DNA of 64,000 nucleotides, taken from contig JABDGU010000001.1 of the NCBI GenBank assembly GCA_013285905.1, positions 1 to 64,000 of the forward strand. Reading direction: 5' to 3'. The translations under genes were made by a program, and so were the position numbers. The notes beneath the pieces were generated by a model. It saw only the letters and a list, made by a program, of their open reading frames with translations, made no database searches and was not told where the DNA came from. Of the stretch, positions 11,309-24,060 are shown one piece after another. The stretch's first letter is position 1; each line of letters begins with the position of its first letter. Source of the stretch: Bacteroidota bacterium. GTDB taxonomy: Bacteria > Bacteroidota > Bacteroidia > Chitinophagales > Chitinophagaceae.

Positions 11309-11552
11309 TTTATTGTTTTTTTGAGACCGGGCAATGAGCCCAAGTGCAATTTCGATATAAGACGGCAATTTATTGCATTTAGTTGGAGGTTTTGATTTGG
11401 ATTGATGGATTAGGGGATTGTTGGATGTGCTTGCAGTGATGAAAATAAAATTATAAAATACTTCGCATACATTTAAAATATTTATTATTTTGTGTAAAAG
11501 TATATAAGATTATTCACTGCATTGTTGATTTTCTATTTGCGTTCATGAGAGA
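11309..11552. other. intergenic, AT-rich, no gene seen
   Basis: Upstream region of the minus-strand gene and approach to the AT-rich repeat. The only item noted is TTATTCACT at 11510-11518, one mismatch from a DnaA box. No coding potential or RNA gene recognised. Confidence 0.4.
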
Positions 11553-11976
11553 AGTTTATCCCTTTTTATCCTTTTTTATCCCTGCCACGTTCCTTTTTGT
11601 TGATATAAATAATTGAATTTCAATCGTTTATTTTGTTTTTTTTATCCTTTTGCCAAGAAAAAAACATTGGTCATTTGGGTTATTCGCTGTCGCTCATGAG
11701 ATCGCTTCGCTAAGTTGTGGATAATGTAAATAGTAGAAAAAATAAATTCAGGGTAGAAAAAGTCTAAATTCTTAAGGAAGATTTTTGATCCTCCTTCGCA
11801 AAAAAGCTAGGGCGGACACCGTAAGCCATAGTGCAAAGAACTAAAAAATTAAAACAAAAGATATGTGTCCAAATTCATGCTAAAGATACGAAACGGAGGT
11901 AGGCGAATCCAAATTTTTCTGTGAAAGTGGCTGTGGGAGCGGAAAGCATTTTGTTAATGGGCTGGAAGGATTGTCT
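11553..11976. repeat. AT-rich dispersed repeat, copy 1 (424 bp)
   Basis: Aligns along its length with 46203-46556 in the same orientation. It begins with reiterated TTTTTATCC units, continues through TGATATAAATAATTGAAT and TTGTGGATAATG (11715-11726, containing the DnaA box TTATCCACA on the minus strand) and ends near GGCTGGAAGGATTGTCTG. Copy 1 has two extra blocks absent from copy 2: about 39 bp from 11677 (TTATTCGCTGTCGCTCATGA...) and about 35 bp from 11790 (CCTCCTTCGC...GGGCGGACAC, an imperfect hairpin). No ORF is conserved between copies, so it is probably non-coding. Confidence 0.85.
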
Positions 11977-12019
11977 GAACTGTGATGTAGGTGATTAACG
12001 TGATAAACATGATTTTTTT

Positions 12020-12093
12020 GCCCTGTAAGGGCTACCTGTCTGTAGAAAAAATATATACCTCCACACCAGCCCCAGAGCGGGCTGAATATTAAT
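12020..12093 (+). repeat. hairpin repeat flanking the giant gene, left copy
   Basis: Sequence with hairpin GCCC...GGGC, core TACCTGTCTGTAGAAA (12033-12048), then ATATACCTCCACACC and a second hairpin GCCCCAGAGCGGGC. The reverse complement of 16970-17038 aligns with it; the 16-bp core is identical. The type resembles extragenic palindromic repeats I associate with Bacteroidota genomes. Confidence 0.85.
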
Positions 12094-12201
12094 CAGGCTG
12101 GTTTTATTAATAGTTTCCGTGTATTGAAAATAGTATTGTATTTATTGAGGACATTTGGAAAATAGCGAAATTTGACTATATTTTTTAAAATATTCAAATC
12201 G

Positions 12202-15200
12202 ATGATTGACATAAATTGGAATAATTATAAATCAAAGTTTAATGGAAGAGAAAGGACTGAATTTGAAAGGCTTGCTTATATGTTGTTCTGTTATGAATAC
12301 AATATTAAGATAGGCATTTTTAGGTTTAAGAATCAAACTGGTATAGAGACGGAACCAATTGAAGTTGACGGTGTGAACATTGGTTTTCAAGCTAAATACT
12401 ACGACACCAAGCTTTCCGATAATAAAAATGATATTATTGATTCACTAAAGAAAGCAAAAACGAAAAATTCTGCTTTAAATAAAATCCTGCTTTATACAAA
12501 CCAAGAACTTTCAGAAAGTAGTAGTACAACCAAGAAAGCCCCAACTTACAAAAGCGAAATTGAAAAATATGCAAACGAAATTAATGTTGCGATTGAGTGG
12601 CGTGTACCGAGCCATTTTGAAAAGCAATTATCGGTTCCAGAAAATGATTACCTAGTTCAATACTTCTTTGGGGTTGGTAATGGCGCTGTTGAATTTCTAG
12701 ATAAAATAAAGGCTCATTCTGAACGCATCCTTTTCGCCATTCAAACAAATATTCGTTTTAAAAACCATCAGATAAAAATAGACAGACAAGACATCCTGTC
12801 AAAAATTGTTCAGAATAAAAAAACAGCAATAATTCTATCAGGTGATGGAGGCAGTGGTAAAACAGCTATCATTAAGGAACTATTTAGCAATCAGTCTCGG
12901 CCCTGTTATGTCTTAAAAGCTGCTGAGTTTAGCGATATAAGCCTTGCGGCTATATTCGGCCAATTCGGGACCTACGATGTGAACGATTTTCTTCGCTTTC
13001 ATAAGGATGAAAGCAATAAGACGTTTGTTATCGATTCTGCTGAAAAGTTAGCCGATTTGGAAAACCTCGATGTTTTTAAGGAACTTCTTTCTGCATTGAT
13101 TAATGATGCATGGACAATAATATTCACGACGAGAAGCAGTTATCTGAATGATTTGAGTTTCTATATGATTGAAGTATACCAACTTCTCTTTGATATTATT
13201 AAAGTAGAAAATATAAGCACCGCGGAGTTGGAAATTTTTTCAACCAGATTCCAATTTAAATTACCAGATAATTCAAGATTGCGGACGCTTATATGTAACC
13301 CGTTTTATTTGAACGAATACCTTAGTAATTATGATATTATTAACGAGCAAACTGATGTTGCGAAATTCAGAGACATACTTTGGCAAAAAAAAATACAAGA
13401 TTCAAAATTCCAAAAAGACAATAGCCACCTTGAAAGAGAAAAGTGCTTCTTAAGCCTGACAAAAGAAAGATGTGATACCGGAAATTTCTATATGAGCGGC
13501 GAGAATTGCAACACCCACATTTTATCGTTGCTAGCAAAAGATGAAATTATCAAACATGACTCAACATATAATGGCTATTTTATAACGCACGATATATATG
13601 AAGAATGGGCTCTTGAAAAACTTATTGAAAGGGAATATGCCATATTAACTTCGTTCCTCTCGTTTTTTGTAAAGATCGGCAACTCTTTACCGATTAGAAG
13701 GGCATTTCGAACATGGCTTTCAAACAAAATACCACAAGCTGAATCCAGCATCAAACAATTCATAGAACAATCTTTCAATGACCCAACTGTGCCAGGCTTC
13801 TGGAAAGACGAATTACTCGTCAGTGTTTTGCTCTCGGATTATTGCATAGAATTTTTTAAGCTTTTCGATAATGTTCTACTTGACAATGATAAACTCCTTC
13901 TTAGAAAGATCATATTTCTGCTGAGAACTACGTGTAAAGAAGTTGATACACTAACCGAAAGAATGATAATATCTCAAGAAGACACTTCTATTAATCCTGC
14001 TTATGTATTTACTAAACCCAAGGGTAAAGGATGGGGTGCCACAGTTGCATACATATATTCCAAGATTGATTTTATACAAAAAGAAGAACTATCTTTTATT
14101 TTACCATTACTCGGGGACTACGTTAGTCACCGACCTATAGGCAATACCGCAAGACTAGGCGGGTTGTTTGCCCTGCATTTTTATAAGGACGCAGAGTTAA
14201 ATGAAGATGTTCATTACGGCAGGGAGATTGAAAAATCGCTTTTGGAAGTTGTATTGGCTGCCGCAGCAGAATTAAAGCCTGAGCTTATAGCGATAACAGA
14301 AGGTTTGCTATCAAGGCCTTTTAATAAGCGAGAGGCTTTTGACAGTTTAGGAGAAACGGTACTCGCTTCTGAATACGAAAGCACGGCTTATATTATGAAA
14401 TTGCCAGAGTATGTAATAAAATTGGCTGATTTCTATTGGTACAAACCGAAAACTGAAAACCATACATTTTATTCTTCAAGTACAGGGGTAGAAGATTCTT
14501 ATTCGATCAGACACAATCATGAATATTTCCCTCCGAGTGCATTACAAACCCCGGTTTATCTTTTATTATATGGAGCTTTTCCAGAAACAATTAAGTTCAT
14601 TCTTGATTTTACTAATCGTGCTGTGGAAGCATATTTTGCTTCTGGCCTGGACCCTTCTGCTCATGAAATTGAGGCCATTATTGGTTCTCATAAAACAAAG
14701 CAAATTATTAGCAGTTGTGTTTGGAATATGTACAGAGGTAATGGGGCTCCTGTTACACCCTATCTTTTACAATGCATGCATATGGCTTTGGAAAAGCGGC
14801 TTCTTGAATTTGCAAAGATTCCAGATAAAAGAAATTTAAAAAAATGGCTAATCCATTTGCTTGAAAACACGCGTTCTGCTTCCATAACTGCCATTGTTAC
14901 CAGCATTGTGTTAGCATATCCTGATGAACTATTTGAAATAGCAATTATCCTCTTTGGCAATCCCGAATTTTATACATATGACAACCTTAGAGCAGCTTCC
15001 GAAAGTGAAGCAAAGAGCCTTTATTCAATTGGTGCTAGATCATATAAGAAAGAGCGATACACAAATGAACGTCTTGCCACGTGCAATGAGCCGCATCGCA
15101 GAATCTCACTCGAAATCCTTGCACGAAACTATCAGTATTTTAAAAATGAGCATATTAGCAATGAAGAGGCGGATAATCGTCAAAAACAAATTTGGAAAGT

Positions 15201-16923
15201 TGTTGATTATCTCTATACTACCATTCCGTCCGAAGATTTGGAAGCTGATAAGGGTAAAATCATTCGCTTGCTCTTAGCAAGAATTGATAGAAGAAAAATG
15301 AATCCAGTAGTAAGTAAGACAGAAGATGGGGTTATTATAAATTTTAATCCTAACCTAGATAATGATTTAAAAGAGTATAGCGATGAAGCTCAGCAAATTT
15401 TTGAAGATAAATTTAAGTATAATAGTTTAAAATTTTGGGCGATAAGCAAAGTTGAGAAGCATACACAATATGGTCCCTCTCCCGAGTATGAGGAACATCC
15501 AGAATTAGTATTAAAAGAAACAAAAGAAATTCTGGATGTGCTAAAGCAAGAAGATAACGAGGCGTTTTATATGCTCAATAGCAGCACCCCCTCTTATACA
15601 TGTTCAGCTTTAATCAGGCGCTATAGCGACAAACTTACAGAAGATGAACTTTTGTTTTGCTGTGATATTGTTATGGACTATGCTGCGTCTCCTTTGAGGG
15701 AAAACTATGGATATCAAATTTCAGATGGCGTTGAAGCCGCAATTGGCACACTGCCGTTCCTTTATAAGCTAGTTCCTGAAAAAAAGGTGGACTTTAACAC
15801 AATCTTGCTTTTTATTCTATTCGACGCCTATCCACTTGGGGGATATAAGAGAATTTGTGATTATGCCATTGAAGCAATTGGTAATAGTTTGTTTGAATTG
15901 TCTCCTAATGATGCGAATACGATATTGTTGGGCTATATGTTTTTCAAACCGAAATTTGACGCGGAAAATCCTCCATTAAAACGGCTGAGAGAAAGAAAAT
16001 CAAGAGCTGAAATATTGAATGATTTTTTTACAAAATACGAGCCTGAATTAATGCATTTTGAAAATGGCACTTTACATTATGACAAGATTGATTTTTCAAC
16101 TCAAGGAATCAAAACCGCAGAAACAGCTTTCCAAATAATCCCTGCTGAAACAATTGACCCAACCCATCTAGACTATATAAAAAAGTTACTTGACAACTTC
16201 AGCAGTGAGTTGTTAAAAAAGACCAAGTATTCAGACGATTCAGAAACTGACTACAAGCTTAAACACCGGTTTAATAAAAAGTTCGCCAAATTTCTCTTGA
16301 ACCGTGATGTAAGTTCAATAGCAGAATGGACGAGGCCGTTTACTACTGCATTTACTATCACTGAGGAAATGGCTAATTTTTTGTCAGATATTGTTTCAGA
16401 AGAAGATAGGTTGTACAAATATGACAGCTTCTGGTCGATTTGGAACTGTTTCTATCCGAAGATAAAATCTGCTGTCCAAACAGAAAGCACCAAATGGCAC
16501 TTGGATAAAATTATTAATAATTATCTCCTCGCATGGCCATGGTGGGAAGATACTGCAAAAGAATGGCGCAGTCTTCGTGAAAGGGAAAAGCTGTTCTTTA
16601 GAAAAGCCTGTTTAGAAATTGGAGGACATCCCGCGGTGTTATTTTCTATCGCAAAATTCCTAAACCAAGTAGGTTCAACATTTATTGATGATGGAATAAT
16701 TTGGATAGCTGATATGCTGGCGGATAACACAAATCTTCATATTGAAGACTTACCAACCAATACTATTTATTACCTGGAGATATTAGCAAGACGTTACGTT
16801 TACCTAAACAGAACAAAATTAAAAACAAGCCGCATCATCAAAGACAAAGTACTTGTGCTATTAAATTTTCTTGTTGCCAAAGGTTCTGTGAGTGGATATT
16901 TGTTGAGAGAAGATATTTATTAG
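12202..16923 (+). CDS. Avs4-like antiphage protein: Mrr-type nuclease + STAND ATPase + helical repeats
   Basis: A 1573-residue protein. Residues ~1-110 look like a Mrr-type PD-(D/E)XK nuclease: helix with Glu22 (FERLAYMLF), Glu49 in TGIETEPI, then Gln63-x-Lys65 in GFQAKYY. A STAND-type P-loop ATPase follows: Walker A GDGGSGKT at 214-221, Walker B FVIDSAEKL with Asp278, and TTRSS after the next strand. The remaining ~1100 residues are helical-repeat-like, as expected for a phage-protein sensor. Known Avs4 proteins have this order and are close to 1,590 residues; they detect phage portal protein and degrade DNA. That assignment rests on architecture, not a search. The ATG at 12202 is preferred to a TTG at 12172. 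Visibly more A/T-rich than neighbours and flanked by inverted repeats, suggesting transfer. Confidence 0.7.
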   Translation: MIDINWNNYKSKFNGRERTEFERLAYMLFCYEYNIKIGIFRFKNQTGIETEPIEVDGVNIGFQAKYYDTKLSDNKNDIIDSLKKAKTKNSALNKILLYTNQELSESSSTTKKAPTYKSEIEKYANEINVAIEWRVPSHFEKQLSVPENDYLVQYFFGVGNGAVEFLDKIKAHSERILFAIQTNIRFKNHQIKIDRQDILSKIVQNKKTAIILSGDGGSGKTAIIKELFSNQSRPCYVLKAAEFSDISLAAIFGQFGTYDVNDFLRFHKDESNKTFVIDSAEKLADLENLDVFKELLSALINDAWTIIFTTRSSYLNDLSFYMIEVYQLLFDIIKVENISTAELEIFSTRFQFKLPDNSRLRTLICNPFYLNEYLSNYDIINEQTDVAKFRDILWQKKIQDSKFQKDNSHLEREKCFLSLTKERCDTGNFYMSGENCNTHILSLLAKDEIIKHDSTYNGYFITHDIYEEWALEKLIEREYAILTSFLSFFVKIGNSLPIRRAFRTWLSNKIPQAESSIKQFIEQSFNDPTVPGFWKDELLVSVLLSDYCIEFFKLFDNVLLDNDKLLLRKIIFLLRTTCKEVDTLTERMIISQEDTSINPAYVFTKPKGKGWGATVAYIYSKIDFIQKEELSFILPLLGDYVSHRPIGNTARLGGLFALHFYKDAELNEDVHYGREIEKSLLEVVLAAAAELKPELIAITEGLLSRPFNKREAFDSLGETVLASEYESTAYIMKLPEYVIKLADFYWYKPKTENHTFYSSSTGVEDSYSIRHNHEYFPPSALQTPVYLLLYGAFPETIKFILDFTNRAVEAYFASGLDPSAHEIEAIIGSHKTKQIISSCVWNMYRGNGAPVTPYLLQCMHMALEKRLLEFAKIPDKRNLKKWLIHLLENTRSASITAIVTSIVLAYPDELFEIAIILFGNPEFYTYDNLRAASESEAKSLYSIGARSYKKERYTNERLATCNEPHRRISLEILARNYQYFKNEHISNEEADNRQKQIWKVVDYLYTTIPSEDLEADKGKIIRLLLARIDRRKMNPVVSKTEDGVIINFNPNLDNDLKEYSDEAQQIFEDKFKYNSLKFWAISKVEKHTQYGPSPEYEEHPELVLKETKEILDVLKQEDNEAFYMLNSSTPSYTCSALIRRYSDKLTEDELLFCCDIVMDYAASPLRENYGYQISDGVEAAIGTLPFLYKLVPEKKVDFNTILLFILFDAYPLGGYKRICDYAIEAIGNSLFELSPNDANTILLGYMFFKPKFDAENPPLKRLRERKSRAEILNDFFTKYEPELMHFENGTLHYDKIDFSTQGIKTAETAFQIIPAETIDPTHLDYIKKLLDNFSSELLKKTKYSDDSETDYKLKHRFNKKFAKFLLNRDVSSIAEWTRPFTTAFTITEEMANFLSDIVSEEDRLYKYDSFWSIWNCFYPKIKSAVQTESTKWHLDKIINNYLLAWPWWEDTAKEWRSLREREKLFFRKACLEIGGHPAVLFSIAKFLNQVGSTFIDDGIIWIADMLADNTNLHIEDLPTNTIYYLEILARRYVYLNRTKLKTSRIIKDKVLVLLNFLVAKGSVSGYLLREDIY

Positions 16924-16969
16924 TGAGGTTACTCATAGTGCTTTGTTATGTGCAAAGACGCGAGAACGG

Positions 16970-17038
16970 AATGTATTGCCCGCTACTGGGCAAGTGTGGT
17001 GGTAGATATTGTTTCTACAGACAGGTAATCCCGATGGG
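16970..17038 (-). repeat. hairpin repeat flanking the giant gene, right copy (inverted)
   Basis: Reverse-orientation copy of 12020-12093; core TTTCTACAGACAGGTA at 17012-17027. It starts 47 bp after the stop of the giant gene. Any short reading frame across 16923-17150 is repeat sequence, not a gene. A further hairpin-rich stretch (CCCCGCCGTTGGACGGG) follows to about 17110. Confidence 0.85.
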
Positions 17039-17227
17039 ATATATCGGTGTTATGTGGGTCAAGCCAAATAGAAATCCGAACCATGCAGGGCCCCGCCGTT
17101 GGACGGGATTACGCCAACGCCGAGGAAACTGCCATGAAATAAGAAGCTGATAACATAATTTTTATAATACTGTTTCTTAACAGGATATTTAACAGTATGG
17201 AAGATAGCTAAGGAAGCCCCATTTTAT

Positions 17228-17235
17228 TATATTTG
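17228..17235 (+). promoter_or_regulatory. -7 promoter box of the gldFG operon
   Basis: TATATTTG, exact TAnnTTTG match, ending 30 bp before the gldF ATG. No clear -33 TTG at the expected distance. Confidence 0.5.
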
Positions 17236-23412: not shown

Positions 23413-24060
23413 TTGGGGAAGAATAAGATAAAATATGAATTACAGGATCTCATTCAGGGAAAGAGCAGAGATAGGGAAGCAAATCCTATCCAGAACATTG
23501 CCGCTTACCTTGGAGCAGGCAAAGCTGCAAGTACAAAAAATGAAACAAAGGAGTACACAAAACAACAAGAAGAAGAGGGATTAATAAATTTTATCAACAG
23601 TAACAACCTGTGGTATGCGCAGGATATCAATGAACCTGATAAAATTGGCGAGGGAGCAGAACAAAAAGTGTACTACTACCCTGAAAAACGTGTTGTAATT
23701 AAATTAAATGATTCAATATTTTTCAGCTATTGGATAGATTATTTTCACAACCTTCTTATTCACAATTATCTTTTTCCTGATACTGCATATACGCTTAGAG
23801 GGTTTAAATTGGTGAATAGTGTGTTGTATGCGGTAGTAGAACAACCACATATTGTCAGCACGGAAGATATTGATCTTGACGATGTAAAAGAATTTCTCAG
23901 GCAGAATGGTTTTGAGAATACCAGGAGAAATGATTACTATAATGATGAACTAGGTATTATTTTAGAAGACTTGCATGATGAAAATGTAATAAGTTCTAAC
24001 AAGGTTCCTTTCTTTGTTGACACTGTCTTTTATATCACAAGTAAGTTTTATGAATCTTAG
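23413..24060 (+). CDS. small protein-kinase-like protein (polyvalent-protein STY-kinase type)
   Basis: A 215-residue protein with the minimal kinase pattern: glycine loop IGEGAEQKVY (78-87), ATP-anchoring Lys97 in VVIK, catalytic loop Asp186-Leu-His-Asp-Glu-Asn191 (LEDLHDENV) and metal-binding Asp203 in FFVD. The compact form resembles the Ser/Thr/Tyr kinase domain found in polyvalent proteins of phages and conjugative elements. The lysine/glutamate-rich N-terminal ~75 residues are unassigned. There is no ATG: the start is a TTG at 23413 (an upstream ATG at 23370 is out of frame and stops early). Substrate unknown. Confidence 0.65.
   Translation: MGKNKIKYELQDLIQGKSRDREANPIQNIAAYLGAGKAASTKNETKEYTKQQEEEGLINFINSNNLWYAQDINEPDKIGEGAEQKVYYYPEKRVVIKLNDSIFFSYWIDYFHNLLIHNYLFPDTAYTLRGFKLVNSVLYAVVEQPHIVSTEDIDLDDVKEFLRQNGFENTRRNDYYNDELGIILEDLHDENVISSNKVPFFVDTVFYITSKFYES

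Follow-up and report, generated by a model that had tools for sequence, protein, structure and literature searches.

The window, by which we mean the whole stretch of 64,000 nucleotides that was analyzed, contains a single long plus-strand open reading frame (ORF) that starts in its ORF list at a TTG (12172) or an ATG (12202) and ends with the stop at 16923. The ATG is the likely start, because the relatives in Ferruginibacter (locus L056) and Sphingobacterium (L054) open with the identical MIDINWNN, and from this codon the product has 1573 amino acids (Table 1). The protein scores 1945 bits end to end against the NCBIfam equivalog model for Avs4 (NF041815, cut-off 1500) and 1836 bits over residues 1-1572 against the PADLOC Avs4 profile, the only other PADLOC match being a weak one to PDC-M54A. 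In a phmmer search of PDB sequences at E-values up to 10, the only sequence matched is 8dgf (1115 bits, full length), an E. coli Avs4 sequence from the entry titled 'Avs4 bound to phage PhiV-1 portal'. Since two profile libraries and the sequence of a solved structure agree, the gene is assigned to Avs4, as the first-pass annotation had proposed; no evidence against this membership was found. Judged by its sequence, it is an intact Avs4, a STAND-class receptor predicted to act against phages as a single protein. The identity is missed by Pfam alone, which gives only weak matches below cut-off, with AAA first. The source assembly is partial (2.5 Mb, 129 contigs, 60.8% complete) and contains one match to the Avs4 model, which is over the cut-off and free of internal stops.

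Table 1. Features of the avs4 locus; coordinates refer to the window, and the domain boundaries are inferred.
Feature	Position	Strand	Evidence
Left copy of the dispersed double-hairpin repeat	12021..12082	+	
Putative promoter of Bacteroidota type, TTTG-N19-TATATTTT	12154..12184	+	weak, without shuffle control
avs4 gene, 1573 aa	12202..16923	+	profile and 8dgf matches
Putative N-terminal nuclease domain, residues ~1-160	12202..12681	+	profile of residues 1-170 against 8dgf; low-confidence model
Glu49 codon, putative first catalytic acid	12346..12348	+	invariant 7/7
Gln63-Ala64-Lys65, Q-x-K motif	12388..12396	+	Gln63 and Lys65 invariant 7/7
Predicted STAND NTPase and winged-helix region, residues ~165-500	12694..13701	+	weak AAA below cut-off; full Avs4 profile
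Walker A, residues 214-221, GDGGSGKT	12841..12864	+	six residues invariant 7/7
Asp278, Walker B	13033..13035	+	invariant 7/7
Thr309-Thr310-Arg311, TTR motif, presumably of sensor type	13126..13134	+	invariant 7/7
His463-Asp464, presumed place of the winged-helix HD motif	13588..13593	+	invariant 7/7
Predicted C-terminal helical-repeat sensor, residues ~500-1573	13699..16920	+	8dgf_B matched by the model of residues 560-1573
Right copy of the dispersed double-hairpin repeat, inverted	16978..17039	-	

The intervals 11368-12172 and 16923-17233 contain no ORF of at least 80 amino acids. The gene thus stands alone within ~800 bases before and 300 bases after it, among unrelated neighbors, in agreement with its earlier description as a stand-alone gene, and constitutes a single-gene system. 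On the left it is bordered by a minus-strand ORF without an assigned family, on the right by ABC-transporter genes, which we take to be of the gldF/gldG type, and then by a Mur-ligase/alanine-racemase fusion. In an empty-site comparison of 19 genomes, own genome included, gldF is present in 18 and the left neighbor is matched in only three. The contig of a same-genus genome stops ~106 bases upstream of gldF, and two further genomes (G005 and G001) carry other genes at the site beside gldF, as judged by eye from their ORFs.

Of the 67 ORFs of at least 120 amino acids in the window, 10 besides avs4 were compared with PADLOC, and none is a convincing defense gene; two of the 10 gave matches, of which the one to Cas3 turned out to be the Mfd/TRCF helicase and the one to CARF a response regulator. 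Just after the Mur-ligase/alanine-racemase fusion lies a low-GC gene (23413-24060, GC 0.343) with the polyvalent-protein kinase domain PF18762, a domain usually found in mobile elements.

Flanking repeats, base composition and selection

The avs4 gene is flanked by an inverted pair of 50-nt segments (12033-12082 and 16978-17027) that are 84% identical. The core motif of the repeat has two copies in the window, a number reached in none of 100 shuffles, and the looser hairpin motif CCCGTAGGG, with one mismatch allowed, occurs there at chance level (6 observed vs 5.5 expected). The pattern CCC-N4-GGG-N6-TGTNNGTAGAAA, with up to one mismatch, is found at eight places in the 2.5-Mb assembly, six of them elsewhere than at avs4, and the reversed pattern at none. 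An alignment of the eight places shows a first hairpin, a GTAGAAA core and, in most of them, a second hairpin-like stretch; a longer version of the pattern with up to three mismatches retrieves no copies besides the two that flank avs4. Some of the other copies adjoin ordinary-looking chromosomal genes, such as an ORF resembling peptidyl-tRNA hydrolase (named by eye).

We read the flanking sequences as dispersed REP-like repeats, and their framing of avs4 is possibly due to chance. Of the earlier statement that the gene lies between repeats, the inverted repeats are real, but they belong to a family dispersed over eight places and are not the ends of an Avs4 element. A small avs4 transposon with these repeats as its ends was rejected because the repeat is dispersed and inspection by eye revealed no target duplication beside the repeats at avs4. 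A Y1-transposase family, of the kind associated with REP repeats, exceeds its cut-off at five places in the assembly, two of them partial. Another contig of the same assembly (C9; L050:4182-7584) has three copies of the hairpin repeat, two of which are inverted around ORFs that by eye resemble J-domain and WG-repeat proteins and look like accessory cargo.

The avs4 gene has a GC content of 0.357 and a GC3 of 0.321, against a GC3 of 0.37-0.57 in 17 of 18 other, hand-picked genes of the window; the exception is the polyvalent-kinase gene (0.319). The gene is indeed A/T-rich, as had been claimed from first inspection, when set against these other genes, and its low GC3 fits acquisition from elsewhere, but no empty site emerged from the genomes compared. 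Directly before it lie ~800 AT-rich bases without an ORF of 80 amino acids (11369-12171; GC 0.331 for the 5' stretch from 11369 up to 12201). A search of the window with Rfam at gathering thresholds and for tRNAs returned only five tRNAs, none of them at avs4, and no Rfam match in 11369-12171. The candidate promoter in Table 1 follows what we take to be the Bacteroidota promoter consensus.

Compared over 1570 codons with the 69%-identical Ferruginibacter copy, avs4 differs 340 times at first, 228 times at second and 767 times at third codon positions, the distribution expected of a gene under purifying selection.

Conserved residues and structural models

To assess motif conservation, we aligned seven Avs4 proteins, namely the window protein, those of L056, L002, L054 and L055, and two E. 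coli plasmid copies, which are 69, 49, 49, 46, 38 and 34% identical to the window protein, respectively. Glu49, Gln63 and Lys65, the putative catalytic residues of a nuclease domain that we take to be of the Mrr type, are invariant in all seven. The same holds for six residues of the eight-residue Walker A motif (G214, G216, G217, G219, K220 and T221), for Asp278, so that the P-loop and Walker B of the STAND NTPase are intact, and for Thr309-Thr310-Arg311 and His463-Asp464.

The nuclease and NTPase motifs sit at the positions given by the first-pass annotation, and the Q-x-K motif, whose loss in homologues it had named as counter-evidence, is kept throughout the alignment. Its further suggestion that Glu49 hints at a differing activity is rejected: because this residue is invariant in the seven compared proteins, both E. 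coli copies included, it does not single out the window protein.

A model of the predicted sensor (residues 560-1573, 1014 residues), built from four sequences, is almost entirely helical, in line with the predicted C-terminal helical repeats as far as this region was folded. Its confidence is middling, with a mean pLDDT of 62 and 292 of the 1014 residues below 50. The best match in the PDB is the portal-bound Avs4 of 8dgf (E 1.2e-33, TM 0.62 by query, ~1000 columns), and the next ones, to exportin and other, unrelated HEAT-type proteins, start at an E-value of 1e-5 with a TM of ~0.2. This search thus puts an Avs4 first, and the modeled fold of the C-terminal sensor matches that of the E. coli protein (EcAvs4).

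For residues 1-170 the model is of low quality, with a mean pLDDT of 50.7 and secondary structure elements in the order alpha-beta-beta-beta-alpha-beta. Foldseek ranks 8dgf first for this model too (E 2e-7), and the restriction enzyme EcoT38I appears at rank 18 (E 0.11); with a TM of 0.43, the match to 8dgf is no independent proof of the fold. Because the model is poor, the predicted nuclease fold rests on sequence. A profile of residues 1-170 matches 8dgf (hmmsearch, E 2e-48). A best structural match outside the Avs group, regarded at the outset as a sign against the assignment, did not occur in either fold search.

Distribution and relatives of the gene

Avs4 is rare in the family of the source genome. 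The searches of the family and phylum samples scored two candidates per genome, and their counts are therefore lower bounds. Some match at an E-value of 0.001 is found in 53 of 294 family genomes, with a best match of at most 50.4 bits in 44 of them, mostly to short P-loop stretches; the Avs4 cut-off is exceeded in at least two of the 294, own genome included. The 395 genomes of the phylum sample include 135 with some match and at least one, the own genome, that exceeds the cut-off. Among 14 control genomes one was matched, and none over the cut-off.

A contig scan identified three full-length relatives, in Ferruginibacter (MAG RYN_298, L056), Sphingobacterium multivorum (L054) and Maribacter flavus (L055). 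Like the window gene, each is a single full-length ORF, with 69, 49 and 46% identity, respectively, and their surroundings differ from it: a 917-aa ORF lies 46 bp downstream of avs4 in Ferruginibacter, a transposase and a tyrosine recombinase (named by eye) are the neighbors in Sphingobacterium, and a 469-aa ORF without a family is the neighbor in Maribacter. The 917-aa ORF (L056:10769-13522) has no PADLOC match and only a weak, sub-cut-off TPR match in Pfam. A CHAT-domain ORF (L002:6283-7692, PADLOC BovA) precedes the family's second Avs4 by 72 bp and is possibly a paired defense gene. One further candidate with a nuclease-like match (L008) was dropped, there being no ORF of 900 amino acids in the stretch examined.

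Matches were also found in 39 plasmid records, and in 35 the match spans 80% of the query or more. E. coli or Salmonella account for 35 of the 39, most at ~37% identity, and 27 are annotated as Avs4. The window gene differs from the E. coli plasmid copies in this divergence (~37% identity) and in its location on a chromosome-like contig. Phages contributed one record, a partial STAND match with 23% identity.

These data bear on two alternative readings. A regulatory STAND ATPase without a defense function would agree with the position of the gene, alone among ordinary chromosomal genes, and with the lack of another defense gene among the ORFs tested. We consider it highly improbable in view of the nuclease motif kept in all seven aligned proteins, the equivalog-level match to Avs4, the patchy distribution in the family and the plasmid-borne relatives annotated as Avs4. 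The other reading, that the gene is decaying and no longer works, draws on the fact that decay does occur among E. coli plasmid copies: two records (H51 and H52, equal in length and perhaps one plasmid deposited twice) are broken into 5 pieces, a third (H56) into 11, and a fourth (H57) covers 63% only. The window gene itself has no internal stop, retains all motifs and shows codon differences indicative of purifying selection, which makes decay just as hard to credit.

Parts of Avs4 were also observed in other combinations. Four proteins (L003, L006, L021 and Calothrix P0005) share with Avs4 the profile from about position 150 to the end and differ from it in having no match to the nuclease part. 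In L003/L004, the Avs4 NTPase and sensor follow another N-terminus with a possible restriction-type domain (Q-I-K-H, by eye). L021 has a trypsin-like N-terminus, just below the Pfam cut-off, with PADLOC LmuA and LmuA/Avs2 profiles; a passage of PMC12799240 describes trypsin-Avs fusions whose partner is a nuclease gene located upstream. The Calothrix protein (L083:2432-6787) has a short N-terminus only, and a small upstream ORF, perhaps a detached adaptor, shares with it a NINTxGGNYxERIxGDYxQG stretch. Conversely, in a protein encoded by a Moraxella osloensis plasmid (L084:4498-8244), a nuclease region of the Avs4 type (residues 3-248 by PADLOC Avs4) is joined to a protein of the PD-Lambda-4_A type, which puts the same effector on another sensor.

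Proposed mechanism and trigger

Passages of the Avs literature describe EcAvs4 bound to the gp8 portal of PhiV-1 (PMC12847820), Avs1-3 as targeting the terminase and Avs4 the portal (PMC12724215), and a nuclease activity by which Avs1-Avs4, once they recognize terminase or portal proteins, cleave the genomes of both phage and host (PMC12931631); a review likewise states in part of its text that terminase and portal are sensed (PMC10286901). In Avs2, the effector is described, in a portion of PMC12724215, as activated by ATP-dependent oligomerization of the ATPase domain. According to excerpts of two of these papers (PMC12931631, PMC12724215), Avs1-Avs3 and Avs5 are STAND receptors, as the window protein is predicted to be, and differ in their terminase target (Avs1-3) or in having Sir2 (Avs5). 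EcAvs4 resembles the window protein in full-length collinearity, motifs and sensor fold.

By homology with these systems we infer a portal trigger, oligomerization, DNA cutting and a role in defense. The C-terminal helical sensor would most likely bind newly synthesized portal protein of the phage, after which the central NTPase would bind or exchange nucleotide and the protein would oligomerize; oligomerization would join the nuclease domains of PD-(D/E)XK type at the N-termini, which would then cut phage and host DNA, and the infected cell would die before phage release. We assign a probability of roughly 0.85 to the reading of the window gene as an Avs4 receptor that acts by portal sensing, oligomerization and DNA cutting.

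The trigger may differ from that of EcAvs4, because over residues 1201-1350 five Bacteroidota copies average only ~22% identity to one E. coli copy, which may point to a different ligand surface. A protein that is Avs4 by descent, with a sensor that has moved on to some other phage protein or to a type of portal missed by EcAvs4, would account for this stretch, for the overall identity of ~37% to E. coli Avs4 and for the 31% identity among the Bacteroidota copies themselves over residues 1276-1350. The sensor model, however, still matches portal-bound Avs4 over ~1000 columns, and the variable stretches may fall outside the contact surface, so that we regard such a shift as rather unlikely. Slightly less likely still is the broader idea that the Bacteroidota branch of Avs4, in which residues 1201-1350 of the sensor are strongly diverged, was retuned away from the portal surface gripped by EcAvs4 toward another phage structure, with Avs4 serving as a scaffold for several triggers.

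Avs4 is already known, and the window gene is a well-identified, ordinary further example and no new kind of system. It adds a clear Avs4 with an intact nuclease region from the Bacteroidota and shows that Glu49 is fixed in the Avs4 copies compared. The five aligned Bacteroidota copies are divergent enough for testing portal sensing across phyla, and the possible difference in the ligand surface is one question of some interest.
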